DNA of 64,000 nt from a bacterium (lineage in GTDB: Bacteria > Myxococcota_A > UBA9160 > UBA4427): NCBI GenBank assembly GCA_024742285.1, contig JANSYR010000017.1, forward strand, positions 62,001 through 126,000. The letters are read 5' to 3'. Shown piece by piece: positions 20,091-45,359 of the stretch. The notes beneath the pieces are model-generated. The model ran no database searches and had not been told where the DNA came from. It saw only the letters and a program-made list of their open reading frames with translations. The stretch's first letter is position 1. Every line of letters starts with the position of its first letter. The position numbers and the translations under genes were made by a program.

Positions 20091-21263
20091 ATGGCGACGG
20101 TCTGGGTCTCTGCGGGAGACGTTTCCGGCGATGCGATCGGCGCGGACCTGATCCGCGCGATCGCTGCAGCGCGACCGGGAACGCGCTTCGTGGGGCTCGG
20201 CGGCCCCGGCATGGAGGCGGCGGGGCTCGAGCGCTTCGCGGACCAGGAGGCGTTGGCGATCGGCGGGTTGCTCGAGTGGCTGCCGAGCCTCGGCCGGATC
20301 GTCGGGATCTGGCGCCGCGTGATCCGTGGGCTCCGGGCCAGCCGTCCCCACCTCGTCATCGTGATCGATTCCGGGGGCTTCCACCTGCCGTTCATGCGCG
20401 TCGCCCGCGTCTTCTGCGACGCGCCGATCCTCTACTACGTGGCCCCCCAGGTCTGGGTCTGGCGCGCGGGCCGCGTGCGCCGGATCGCCGCCCGCGCCGA
20501 TCGGATCGCCGTCGTCTGGCCCTTCGAGCCCGCTTTCTGGTCGGCGTGGGGCGTCGAGACCGACTTCGTCGGCCATCCGATCCTCGATCGCGAGGTCGCC
20601 CAGGCGCCGGCGCCCGCCGCCCGCGTCGCTGCGCGTTCCCGCCTCGGACTCGATCCGGAGCGCCCGCTCGTGGGTCTCTTTCCGGGGAGCCGGCGGAACG
20701 AGCTGGTCCGGCACCTGCCTCCGATGATCGGTGCGCTCCAGCGGCTTCGGGCGGAGCGGCCCGATCTCGACGGGGTCCTCGTCCGGGCGCCTTCGGTCGA
20801 CCCGGAGCGGATCGATGCGCTGCTCGCCGAAGCGGGCGCCGGGCCGGAGATCCGCGTCGTCACGGCAGAGCCCGACTGGCTGGACGCGATCGACGTCGGG
20901 CTCACGAAGCCCGGGACGATCACCCTCGAGCTGATGCTGCGCGAGCGGCCGATGGTCGTCGTCGGCCGCGCGCATGCCCTGTCGGTGGCGCTGGTCCGTC
21001 GGAGCTTCGTCGGGGCGCGGGTGGCCCTGCCGAATCTGGTCGCCGAAGAGGAGATCGTGCCGGAGCTCCTCCAGGACGACGCGACGCCGGATCGAATCGC
21101 GGCGGAACTTGGGCCACTCTTGCCGGAGACGAGCGGGGCGTCGCCCTCGGCCGTCGCACAGGTGGGAGCGCTCCGGAGGGCCCGGAGTCGGCTCGGCGAA
21201 CCGGGGGCCTCGGTTCGCGCGGCGCGGATCGCGGAGGAGATGCTTGGGGCCGATCGCGCATAG
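20091..21263 (+). CDS. lpxB: Lipid-A-disaccharide synthase LpxB
   Basis: Joins lipid X and UDP-2,3-diacylglucosamine to make the beta-1,6 disaccharide. 390 residues, GT19/GT-B fold. The N-terminal motif reads SAGDVSGDAIGADL, with Asp where most relatives have Glu (AGExSGD). Other family blocks are YYVAPQVWVWRAGRVRRI, FVGHPILD, VGLFPGSRRNEL, and the KPGTITLELML region near the nucleotide site. It starts 1 bp after the oxidoreductase and overlaps the TTG start of kdtA by 20 bp. Confidence 0.94.
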   Translation: MATVWVSAGDVSGDAIGADLIRAIAAARPGTRFVGLGGPGMEAAGLERFADQEALAIGGLLEWLPSLGRIVGIWRRVIRGLRASRPHLVIVIDSGGFHLPFMRVARVFCDAPILYYVAPQVWVWRAGRVRRIAARADRIAVVWPFEPAFWSAWGVETDFVGHPILDREVAQAPAPAARVAARSRLGLDPERPLVGLFPGSRRNELVRHLPPMIGALQRLRAERPDLDGVLVRAPSVDPERIDALLAEAGAGPEIRVVTAEPDWLDAIDVGLTKPGTITLELMLRERPMVVVGRAHALSVALVRRSFVGARVALPNLVAEEEIVPELLQDDATPDRIAAELGPLLPETSGASPSAVAQVGALRRARSRLGEPGASVRAARIAEEMLGADRA

Positions 21264-22524
21264 CGTCGCCTTCCTGCTGGCCGCGGGGCTCTCGCCGGTG
21301 CTCGCCCTCGCGTGGCTCGTCCGGCCAGGCTTGCGTCCGCATTTCGGTGAGCGCCTCGGTCGACCTTCGACCGAGCTCGGAGCGGGGCCGGCGGAGCCCC
21401 CGATCTACGTCCACGCCTCGAGCGTCGGCGAGGCGAAGGCGGCGGCGCGTCTGATCGAGGGGCTCGAAGCCGCCGGGCATCCCGTGGTCGCGACGACCTC
21501 GACGGTCGAGGGGCGCGAGGTCCTGCGGAACGACCGTCCCCACGGCGACTCCCATCTCTTCCCCCTCGACCACCCGTGGACCGTCGAGCGGTTGCTGCGA
21601 CAGGCGAAGCCGTCGCTGTCGGTCCTGATCGAGACGGAGCTCTGGCCGAGCTGGATCGCCGGCTGTGCGCGGCACGGCGTGCCGGTGGTGGTCGCCTCGG
21701 GACGTCTCTCGGACCGATCCTTCCCTCGCTATCGCCGGGTCCGCCGGCTCCTCCGACCGACGCTCGCGCGAGTCGACGCCGTCGGCGCGCGGACCGAGCT
21801 CGACGCGGAGCGCTTCGTCGAGCTCGGTGTTCCCGAGGCGCGCGTCGCCGTCACCGGAGATCTCAAGCTCGACCCGCCGCCGGATCAGCCCGCGCTGTCG
21901 ATCGACCTGATCCGCGCGCTGGCGGACTGTCCGGTCGTGATCGGGGGCAGCACCCACGAGGGCGAAGAGGCGGCGCTCCTCGATGCGATGACGGCGGCCG
22001 AGAAGGCGGGGCACGCGTTCGTCCTGGTCCTCGCGCCGAGGCATGTGGCGCGCTGCGCCGAGGTCGCATCCCTGGTGAAGGCCCGCGGGCGTCGCGTGGT
22101 CCGGCGAAGCGAGCTCGAGGGACGGCACCTCGTGCCCGGCGAGGTCCTCCTGCTCGACACGCTGGGCGAGCTGCCCGCGCTCTACGCGACGGCGTCGATC
22201 GCGTTCGTCGGGGGGACCCTGGCGCCGGTCGGTGGGCACAACCTGGTCGAGCCCGTACACGCCGGCTGTCCGGTGCTCTTCGGGCCGCGGGTCGAGAACG
22301 TTCGCAAGATCGTCGAGATCCTCGAGCTGGGGGACGCGGGGAGGAAGGTGCCGAACGCCGCCGGACTCGCCGCCGAGCTGGTCGCGGCCTTCGACGACCT
22401 CGAGGCCTGTCGCGTGCGCGGCGAGATCGGTCGCGAGGCCCTCGAGGCCCATCGCGGCAGCGTCGAAGCGACCCGGCGGCTGATCGAGGAGGTGCTCGCA
22501 CGTCGTGCCGCCTCCGCCGTCTGA
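21244..22524 (+). CDS. waaA: 3-deoxy-D-manno-octulosonic acid transferase (KdtA/WaaA)
   Basis: GT30 enzyme that adds Kdo from CMP-Kdo to lipid IVA. 426 residues from a TTG preceded by GGAGGAG. This start gives the usual N-terminal membrane anchor (AFLLAAGLSPVLALAWL) before the HFGERLGR motif. The catalytic Glu lies in HASSVGEAKAA, the LIETELWPSWI motif follows, and the GT-B C-terminal domain carries GGTLAPVGGHNLVEP. The last codons and the TGA form the first unit of a 36-bp repeat array that runs into lpxK. Whether it adds one or more Kdo residues cannot be told; a Kdo kinase nearby is compatible with a single Kdo. Confidence 0.94.
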   Translation: MGPIAHSVAFLLAAGLSPVLALAWLVRPGLRPHFGERLGRPSTELGAGPAEPPIYVHASSVGEAKAAARLIEGLEAAGHPVVATTSTVEGREVLRNDRPHGDSHLFPLDHPWTVERLLRQAKPSLSVLIETELWPSWIAGCARHGVPVVVASGRLSDRSFPRYRRVRRLLRPTLARVDAVGARTELDAERFVELGVPEARVAVTGDLKLDPPPDQPALSIDLIRALADCPVVIGGSTHEGEEAALLDAMTAAEKAGHAFVLVLAPRHVARCAEVASLVKARGRRVVRRSELEGRHLVPGEVLLLDTLGELPALYATASIAFVGGTLAPVGGHNLVEPVHAGCPVLFGPRVENVRKIVEILELGDAGRKVPNAAGLAAELVAAFDDLEACRVRGEIGREALEAHRGSVEATRRLIEEVLARRAASAV

Positions 22525-23758
22525 AGAGCGTCCGGACGTCGTGCCTGCTCCGCCGTCTGACGAATCAACTGGCGACGTGCAGGCTCCGCCGTCTGACGAA
22601 TCCCACGGCGACGTGTCGGCGCCTCCGTCCGAGGACTCGCCGGGCGCCGCGATCGGACGCGCGCTGCGCGCCGCGGCCGCGCGGGCGGTGTCCGTGGTCT
22701 GGTCCGCGTCGGCGAGCGTCCATCGCGCGGTCGCCACCCGAAGCCGGGCCGCGCGAGGGCGTCCGGCCTGCGCCGTCGTGAGCGTCGGGGGGCTCACCGT
22801 CGGGGGCGCGGGCAAGACGCCGGCCGCCGCGGCGGTCGCGCGGGGGCTCCACGCGCGCGGGCTGCGGGTCGTTCTGGCGAGCCGGGGCTACGGGGGGAAG
22901 ACGCGGGATCCGGTGAACGTGGTCTCCGACGGGCGGCACGTGCGGGCGCAGGCGGCGCGGACCGGCGACGAGTCGCTCGTGCTCGCGGCCCATGCGCCCG
23001 GGGTTCCGGTCCTCGTCGGACGGGATCGCGTCGTCGTGGGACACCGGGCGGTGTCGGGCTTCGACGCGGAGGTCCTCGTCCTCGACGACGGCTTCCAGCA
23101 CCATGGCCTCGCCCGGGACTTCGATCTGGTCTGCATCGACGGCGTCGCCGGACTCGGGAACGGACGGGTCGTGCCGGCCGGGCCGCTCCGTGAGCCGCGC
23201 TCCGCCCTCCGTGAGGCCGATGCGCTGCTCGTCGTCGACGGGGCGCCGGGGGCGACCGGATCGGATCCCAGCGGCGTCCCCGGTCTCGGTGGCGTCACGG
23301 CCGAGGACGTCCCGGTCTATCGCGGCGCGCGCACGCCGCGCGCGCTCGTTCCCCTCGGCGGCGGTGAGCCTGTGGCGCCGGCTTCGCTCGACGGTCAGGA
23401 GGTCGGTCTGCTCGCCGGGATCGCCCGGCCGGCCTCGCTCCGGCGAAGCGTCGAGGCGCTCGGGGCGACGGTCGTCGCCGAGCGGTTCTTTCCCGACCAC
23501 CACGCCTACGCCGAGCGGGACTTCGTCGGACGCCGCGGCCACGCGGCGCTCTCTCCGGACATCCACTGGATCACGACCGAGAAGGATGCGTACAAGATCG
23601 TGGCTCGGTGGCTCGAGGGGATCCGGGTCTCCGTCCTGCGGATGGAGCTCGAGATCGAGACGCCGGACGCGCTGACCGATCGGATCCTCGAAGGGATCGG
23701 CGAACGTGTGGGCCGCCGCCGCTCCGATCGGACCCGATCTCGCGAGCGAAGCGCCTAA
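22505..23758 (+). CDS. lpxK: Tetraacyldisaccharide 4'-kinase LpxK, repeat-extended N-terminus
   Basis: Phosphorylates the 4' position of the lipid A disaccharide. P-loop GGAGKTP follows VVSVGGLTV; DDGFQHHGLARD and the TTEKDAYK block are family hallmarks. From the first GTG the protein has 417 residues, with about 45 extra N-terminal residues made of a 12-residue repeat (xAPPSDESxGDV). Four in-frame GTG codons lie exactly 36 bp apart (22505, 22541, 22577, 22613), so the true start is ambiguous and the repeat may be partly untranslated. A membrane-associated helix near 50-65 precedes the P-loop. The gene converges with kdkA, their stop codons overlapping. Confidence 0.92.
   Translation: MPPPPSEERPDVVPAPPSDESTGDVQAPPSDESHGDVSAPPSEDSPGAAIGRALRAAAARAVSVVWSASASVHRAVATRSRAARGRPACAVVSVGGLTVGGAGKTPAAAAVARGLHARGLRVVLASRGYGGKTRDPVNVVSDGRHVRAQAARTGDESLVLAAHAPGVPVLVGRDRVVVGHRAVSGFDAEVLVLDDGFQHHGLARDFDLVCIDGVAGLGNGRVVPAGPLREPRSALREADALLVVDGAPGATGSDPSGVPGLGGVTAEDVPVYRGARTPRALVPLGGGEPVAPASLDGQEVGLLAGIARPASLRRSVEALGATVVAERFFPDHHAYAERDFVGRRGHAALSPDIHWITTEKDAYKIVARWLEGIRVSVLRMELEIETPDALTDRILEGIGERVGRRRSDRTRSRERSA
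22512..22632 (+). repeat. 36-bp tandem repeat spanning the kdtA stop and lpxK start
   Basis: The 13-mer CTCCGCCGTCTGA occurs at 22512, 22548 and 22584, exactly 36 bp apart, with a degenerate fourth unit at about 22620. In the kdtA frame each clear unit supplies a TGA; in the lpxK frame each unit encodes about 12 residues and a GTG. The array looks like repeated duplication of the gene junction. Confidence 0.9.
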
Positions 23759-43715: not shown

Positions 43716-45248
43716 ATGGCCCTCTTCGCCGAGATCCCCTCCGAAGGCGACGCCCGTCGCTACGACATCAAGAGCCCCGTCACCCTCGAGTCGATCGGGC
43801 AGTTCCAGTCGGCCACCGCCGACGAGGTGAAGGCGGCGGTCGACCGCGCGCGCAAGGCCCAACGCGAGTGGGCGACGCGCTCCTTCGACGACCGTGCGCA
43901 GGTCCTCTGGGCGATCGTGGACGGTCTCGTCGAACGCCAGGACGAGATCGTCGATCTCGTCATCAAGGAGACGGGCAAGGCGCTCAACGAGGCGATCAGC
44001 ATGGAGGTCCTCGCGCCCTGCATGCAGATCTCCCACTACGCGAAGTACGGCAAGAAGTACCTCGCGACGAAGACGAAGCGGCCGTCGGGCGTCATGCGCT
44101 TCGCCAAGAAGGTCACGCTCCACTACCAGCCCCTCGGCGTCGTCGGGCTCATCACGCCCTGGAACGGTCCCGTGGCCCTCGCCGCGAACCCGCTCGCCCA
44201 GGCGCTGATGGCCGGGAACGCGGTCGTCCACAAGCCGAGCGAGGTCACTCCGTTCTCGGCGGTGCTCCTCCAGGAGATCTGCGAGAAGGCGGGGCTGCCC
44301 AAGGATCTCTACCAGGTCGTCCAGGGCGACGGCGCGACCGGGGCGGCGCTGATCGACGCGGGCGTCGACAAGGTGTCCTTCACGGGGAGCGTCGCGACCG
44401 GGCGAAAGGTCGGCGAGGCCTGCGGACGGAACCTGATCCCGTGCACCCTCGAGCTCGGGGGCAAGGACGCGATGATCGTCTGCGCGGACGCGGATCTCGA
44501 TCGCGCGGCGGACGGGGCCGTGCGCGGCTCCTTCTTCAACACGGGGCACTACTGCTGCGGGACGGAGCGCGTCTACGTGCCGGAATCGATCTACGAGCCC
44601 TTCGTCGACAAGGTCGTGGAGATGACGAAGCCCCTGACCCAGGCGTCGAGCGGGGCTTCGGACGTCGGCGCCGTCTTCTGGGACAAGCAGATGGACATCA
44701 TCGAGGACCACATGCGCGACGCCAGGGAGAAGGGCGCGCAGGTGCGCGTCGGCGGCGAACGCAACCGGAGCCTCTCCGGCTACTACTTCCCGCCGACCGT
44801 CGTGACCGACGTCGATCACACGATGGACCTGATGCGCCGGGAGACCTTCGGGCCGATCGTGGCGATCCAGAAGGTCCGGGACGAGGACGAAGCGCTCGAG
44901 CTCGCCAACGACTCCGACTACGGACTCTCCGGCAACGTGTGGACCCGGGACCTGGAAAAGGGCGCACGGCTCGGCGCGCGCATGGTGACCGGCAGCGTGT
45001 CGGTGAACGACATCGCCGTGACCTACGGCGTCCCGGAGACGCCGTTCGGCGGCGTCAAGGAGAGCGGCGTCGGCCAGGTGAACGGCGAGGTGGGCATTCG
45101 CGGCTACTGCCACGTCCACCCCGTCATCGTGGACACCACGAAGAAGGCCCAGGGCGGCTACCCGTACACCGAAGAGAGCGCCGAGGGACTGCGCAAGATG
45201 GTGCGGACCGTCTTCGGCAACAAGTTCCTGCGGAAGCTCTTCGTCTAG
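43716..45248 (+). CDS. NAD(P)-dependent aldehyde dehydrogenase
   Basis: 510-residue ALDH. ITPWNGPVALAANPLAQAL forms the cofactor site with HKPSEVTPFS. FTGSVATGRKV is the Rossmann loop, LELGGKDAMIV holds the general-base Glu, and FNTGHYCCGTERVYV the nucleophilic Cys. ETFGPIVAIQKV and PFGGVKESGVGQVNG are further family blocks. AAAGGAG is the ribosome site. The gene stands alone between the ABC pair and the pilin cluster, with a repeat array behind it. The C-terminus is some 25 residues longer than usual and basic. The aldehyde cannot be deduced. Confidence 0.9.
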   Translation: MALFAEIPSEGDARRYDIKSPVTLESIGQFQSATADEVKAAVDRARKAQREWATRSFDDRAQVLWAIVDGLVERQDEIVDLVIKETGKALNEAISMEVLAPCMQISHYAKYGKKYLATKTKRPSGVMRFAKKVTLHYQPLGVVGLITPWNGPVALAANPLAQALMAGNAVVHKPSEVTPFSAVLLQEICEKAGLPKDLYQVVQGDGATGAALIDAGVDKVSFTGSVATGRKVGEACGRNLIPCTLELGGKDAMIVCADADLDRAADGAVRGSFFNTGHYCCGTERVYVPESIYEPFVDKVVEMTKPLTQASSGASDVGAVFWDKQMDIIEDHMRDAREKGAQVRVGGERNRSLSGYYFPPTVVTDVDHTMDLMRRETFGPIVAIQKVRDEDEALELANDSDYGLSGNVWTRDLEKGARLGARMVTGSVSVNDIAVTYGVPETPFGGVKESGVGQVNGEVGIRGYCHVHPVIVDTTKKAQGGYPYTEESAEGLRKMVRTVFGNKFLRKLFV

Positions 45249-45359
45249 GCCGTCGCCTGCGGGCGCTCGGCGATTTTCGGGCTTCTGCGGGGCCGTCGCC
45301 TGCGGGCGCTCGGCGCGTTCTTGTGCTTCTGCCGGGCCATCGCTTGCGGGCGCTCTGCG
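45248..45359 (+). repeat. Tandem GC-rich repeat after the aldehyde dehydrogenase gene
   Basis: A 25-bp sequence at 45248-45272 recurs exactly at 45291-45315 and with three changes at 45335-45359, a period of 43-44 bp. Each copy contains the mini-hairpin CGCC-TGCG-GGCG. Its 18-bp core (GCCTGCGGGCGCTCGGCG) is also found at 34365-34382 behind spoT. The array begins at the dehydrogenase stop codon. Confidence 0.85.

Follow-up and report, generated by a model that had tools for sequence, protein, structure and literature searches.

In-frame coding minisatellites have a repeat period that is a multiple of three, encode a disordered, low-complexity product, and differ in copy number from lineage to lineage. 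The array described here, at the junction of kdtA and lpxK, resembles them in each of these features, but it differs from them in that the repeated unit takes in both the stop codon of the preceding gene and the start codon of the gene it belongs to, and both have been copied. A second type of related system is the coupled, overlapping gene pair on one strand (PMC6728339, PMC10666635), with a stop/start overlap and a Shine-Dalgarno (SD) sequence inside the upstream gene. The kdtA/lpxK pair, for which coupling is putative, shows the same arrangement, and its overlap, as in coupled pairs, is conserved, here in much of the genus. The usual overlap of such pairs is 4 or 1 nt, whereas that of kdtA/lpxK is 20 nt and the additional start codons lie beyond the effective range of reinitiation. 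Finally, phase-variable LPS and methyltransferase genes such as lic1 and modA (PMC3899988) are comparable in that repeats are located at the start of an LPS-pathway gene. Their repeats are short and pure, and a change in number alters the reading frame (PMC3899988), whereas the units examined here are 36 bp long, diverged and frame-neutral. No report of tandem repeats at a stop/start overlap turned up in literature searches, most subscription journals lying outside their coverage.

Anatomy of the kdtA/lpxK junction

The junction is located in a 64-kb window, i.e., the whole stretch of DNA that was analysed, from the metagenome-assembled genome of an uncultured bacterium (6.5 Mb in 56 contigs). 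Its features are as follows.

21262-22524, + strand: kdtA/waaA (Kdo transferase); stop codon TGA at 22522-22524, 20-nt overlap with lpxK, start approximate
22486-22494, + strand: SD-like sequence GAGGAGGTG, inside the 3' end of kdtA, serving GTG 22505
22505-23758, + strand: lpxK (tetraacyldisaccharide 4'-kinase), 417 aa, of which residues 1-48 are the four repeats
22505-22540, + strand: repeat unit 1, with the lpxK GTG start and the kdtA TGA stop; protein VPPPPSEERPDV
22541-22576, + strand: repeat unit 2, with GTG 22541 and kdtA-frame TGA 22558; protein VPAPPSDESTGD
22577-22612, + strand: repeat unit 3, with GTG 22577 and kdtA-frame TGA 22594; protein VQAPPSDESHGD
22613-22648, + strand: repeat unit 4, degenerate, with GTG 22613 retained and CGA at 22630; protein VSAPPSEDSPGA

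The names kdtA and lpxK, assigned in an earlier note made from the letters of the sequence, are borne out by profile matches. The product of kdtA/waaA matches Pfam PF04413 (E value 1.4e-53), PF13579 and the NCBIfam PRK05749 models, and its C-terminus can be aligned with orthologues right to the stop codon. The product of lpxK matches PF02606 (E value 6e-77) from residue 60 onwards, scores over the cut-off of TIGR00682, and also matches solved LpxK structures (PDB 4EHX group). The lpxB gene sits upstream of both.

Four 36-bp units, at positions 22505-22648, span the kdtA/lpxK overlap. The earlier note had reported three exact 13-bp cores and a degenerate fourth unit, with each of the four units carrying a GTG in the lpxK frame and the three clear ones a TGA in the kdtA frame, and all of these elements are present: the 13-mer CTCCGCCGTCTGA occurs at 22512-22524, 22548-22560 and 22584-22596, the GTG codons are at 22505, 22541, 22577 and 22613, and the TGA codons of units 1-3 are at 22522, 22558 and 22594, with CGA replacing TGA in unit 4. 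Of the limits given there, 22505 is correct as the start of the array, but the end extends from 22640 to 22648. The lpxK frame is open across all four units. TRF places the array at 22504-22629 (period 36, 3.5 copies, score 127), and a separate repeat search of the window recovered three copies at a spacing of 36 bp. At an offset of 36, the array matches itself at 80 of 108 positions (0.74), and it constitutes the best 36-nt periodicity within the window. In 20,000 codon shuffles, the highest self-match over periods 24-72 was 0.61 and none reached the value of the array, which rules out chance periodicity.

Identity between pairs of units ranges from 24 to 30 of 36 positions (67-83%). The greatest similarity is between units 2 and 3 (30/36), and 20 consecutive identical bases are found only between these two. 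A second copy of the array was not found in its own genome (next-best match, E value 0.14), and a dispersed mobile repeat was rejected on this ground. A pattern scan of viral contigs for variants of the array matched a single contig, which was taken as chance.

Relatives and origin of the expansion

The junction was compared, as the earlier note had proposed, across 30 genomes of the family, one genome per species, with nine species in the genus of the window's genome (G000). An lpxK match is present in 25 of the 30, although that of G015 is confined to two contig-end fragments and its junction was not read. None of the five genomes that represent one genus of the same family (G021-G025) has an LpxK match; they may have lost lipid A synthesis or may carry a very diverged enzyme.

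Among the lpxK junctions read, the array occurs only in the window's genome. A single unit is present at the junction in the two closest species, G007 and G002, whose LpxK proteins share 73-76% identity with that of the window; it reads GTGCCGGCCCCGTCCGCTGA.. and GTGCCGGCTCTGCCGACTGA.., respectively, and the 20-nt overlap is the same. Since the window's genome, G007 and G002 form a fully supported group in the tree, one unit is ancestral and four are derived; on these comparisons, the array grew from one unit to four in a single lineage. From the start codon to the shared ARA(V/I)S motif there are 63 residues in the LpxK of the window vs 27 in both relatives, a difference of exactly 36 aa (3 x 12 residues), and the net insertion is 3 x 36 bp. 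The single unit of the relatives and this net gain uphold the proposal that tandem copying of the junction left both genes intact. Neither a conserved, non-repetitive N-terminus nor an equal unit number in distant relatives, the two observations named in advance as speaking against that proposal, was found. Units of 10-60 bp repeated beyond chance, a period that is a multiple of three in an open frame, and a copy number that differs between lineages (four in the window's genome vs one in G007 and G002) are the attributes by which coding minisatellites are recognized, and the array has all of them.

The units are identical to the single units of the relatives at 21-24 of 36 positions. Because they differ mutually nearly as much as they do from these single units, most of the copying is probably old and, judging from the identities, probably dates near the species split. 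The start of lpxK lies 17 nt before the kdtA TGA, giving the 20-nt overlap, in six of the nine genus members (G000, G007, G002, G006, G001 and G003), the codon being GTG in the first five and ATG in G003.

We consider it likely that the array is an in-frame minisatellite that is tolerated and close to neutral, in which one 36-bp unit was amplified to four while LpxK continued to start at GTG 22505. The ancestral stretch would have consisted of the lpxK GTG, 14 nt, the kdtA TGA and a further 16 nt, and would have been copied from one to four by in-frame tandem duplication, presumably through slippage or short-homology recombination, with the latest step probably giving rise to units 2 and 3. 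Because all of the added sequence lies past the first kdtA stop and the unit length is a multiple of three, kdtA and lpxK both survive; for the latter reason, too, the re-created TGA codons are an automatic outcome of copying the overlap. Ribosomes would start LpxK at GTG 22505 via the SD sequence inside kdtA and would then translate the four units as a 48-residue disordered Pro/Ser/acidic tail. Those in the kdtA frame stop at the first TGA unless readthrough occurs, so that the extra TGAs matter only after readthrough. The additional GTG and TGA codons would then be by-products, serving, if at all, as a very weak start inside the gene and as a backup stop. We infer that the expansion was near-neutral, with the LpxK reading frame under mild constraint.

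Start and N-terminal tail of LpxK

The anti-SD duplex energy calculated for GTG 22505 is -15.4 kcal/mol, as against a median of -3.7 and a 1% quantile of -10.8 for random positions. The AGGAGG is conserved in the nearest relatives, and its spacing from GTG 22505, ~11-12 nt, is above the usual length. For GTG 22541, 22577 and 22613, the energies are -3.2, -1.5 and -1.7, i.e., weaker than the random median. Four possible starts had been counted for LpxK in the earlier note; this number is not sustained, since GTG 22505 alone combines an SD sequence with a conserved position, and translation of LpxK most likely starts there. The three later codons are located 16, 52 and 88 nt beyond the kdtA stop, and in native E. 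coli pairs reinitiation is down by 40-80% at +14 nt and nearly abolished at +38 nt (PMC10666635). Given this distance and the lack of SD sequences, the later codons are probably nearly silent as starts. The minimum numbers of changes between units at LpxK codon positions 1, 2 and 3 are 4:6:13; this third-position excess is borderline (chi-square ~5.8, P ~0.055) and speaks mildly for translation in the LpxK frame.

In an AlphaFold2 model, LpxK residues 1-40 have pLDDT values of 42-49 in blocks of ten, and the fold opens with a predicted N-terminal helix spanning residues 46-81. The repeats are thus predicted to form a disordered Pro/Ser/acidic segment ahead of the LpxK fold. A literature search for papers on the N-terminal helix of LpxK found none. 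Across the family the N-terminus varies widely in length, and would therefore be tolerant ground for an insertion.

It could be argued that the Pro/Ser/acidic tail is itself a selected feature of the protein, e.g., for binding or for distancing from the membrane, which the repeat merely encodes. The motif PPS(D/E)(D/E) is retained in all four units, and units 2, 3 and 4 differ from each other mainly by synonymous or conservative changes. However, beyond one loosely conserved unit the tail is absent from the relatives, and both the variable length of the N-terminus in the family and the predicted disorder of the segment render this reading improbable.

We give slightly less weight to a real LpxK start downstream, e.g., at GTG 22688 or 22694, with the array as an untranslated spacer of ~160 nt like other gene-end arrays of the genome. 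A simple codon-usage gene caller trimmed the start of lpxK to 22778, which marks the N-terminal tail as compositionally odd, i.e., as atypical coding sequence by codon usage. Moreover, GTG 22694 has a moderate SD-like match (-9.0), and 16 of 45 arrays in a 1.66-Mb sample of the genome cover a called stop codon. Such a reading is at odds with the conservation of the start position and the 20-nt overlap in five relatives, with a net insertion that is an exact multiple of three and free of lpxK-frame stops, and with the third-position excess of changes between units; a start at 22688 or later would also truncate the predicted N-terminal helix. The conserved start position and the exact keeping of frame outweigh the start chosen by the caller.

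Unit number, background arrays and significance

The idea that unit number tunes the level of LpxK, put forward in the earlier note, finds little room in these results. Several GTG and TGA codons would let the number of units set termination-reinitiation and hence the amount of LpxK, and that number would vary between strains. In keeping with this, an in-frame GTG is retained in every unit, the run of 20 identical bases in units 2 and 3 could support more slippage, and the classic examples of repeat-mediated phase variation include LPS-related genes (lic1; PMC3899988). However, the later GTGs have no SD sites and lie at distances over which reinitiation in E. coli is reduced or nearly abolished, and a unit of 36 bp, being a multiple of three, cannot shift the frame by a change in number. 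Furthermore, impure repeats show greater stability (PMC3899988), and with units just 67-83% identical, rapid variation in unit number from strain to strain is unlikely. The high unit identity of hypervariable VNTRs is lacking here, as is a phase-variable switch of frame or promoter spacing; the array is located downstream of both the SD sequence and the start of lpxK. Tuning of expression is, in our estimation, quite unlikely. We attach marginally less credence to the idea that the copied overlap forms a series of weak starts and backup stops, with the amounts of long and short LpxK depending on how many there are, which would give a graded translational control differing between strains. An artefact of assembly is scarcely credible, even for an assembly in 56 contigs, since units that differ at 6-12 of 36 positions could not simply have been multiplied from one by an assembler, and the flanks are ordinary and both reading frames intact.

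The background was estimated in the same 1.66 Mb, made up of stretches from the window's genome with genes predicted by the simple codon-usage caller. This sample contains the 45 tandem arrays (score of at least 100) and 181 same-strand overlapping gene pairs. Placed at random, the arrays would be expected to hit the junction of such a pair 0.54 times, with a probability of 0.42 for at least one hit, and a special junction mechanism was therefore rejected. All nine arrays wholly inside genes have a period divisible by three. The 16 arrays covering a called stop compare with ~4 expected from stop density alone, an excess that must in part reflect the exclusion of arrays from gene interiors. The kdtA/lpxK array is one of a class of arrays in this genome.

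Other members of the genome's repertoire were also noted. Tandem duplications of 35 and 37 bp, in just over two copies, re-create an ATG start at C3:389926-390001 and C1:121900-121982 of G000; at the former, a purine-rich GAGGGGGA stretch precedes the re-created ATG. Within the window, a 39-bp duplication (343-426, 2.2 copies) at the 3' end of a putative response regulator gene repeats its TGA stop 373-375 at 412-414, a comparable event at a gene end, and a 44-bp array (45248-45359, 2.6 copies) begins at the TAG stop of a putative aldehyde dehydrogenase ORF. The core of the latter, CGCCTGCGGGCGCTCGGCG, is found again in other tandem arrays of the genome, frequently placed directly after stop codons, and a simple pattern for it matches 13 of the 45 arrays; these could be a dispersed family of palindromic or terminator-like repeats.

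Tuning by unit number, if true, would place lipid A synthesis under a novel graded control. As it stands, the array looks like a harmless expansion of a common type rather than a proven control switch. Start and stop codons that reappear in this way should not be read as regulation, for any overlap copied in units divisible by three yields them automatically. The array shows neatly how an essential gene pair can accommodate extra sequence where the two genes overlap: tandem copies added in frame beyond the first stop spare both products and do no more than extend a disordered tail.
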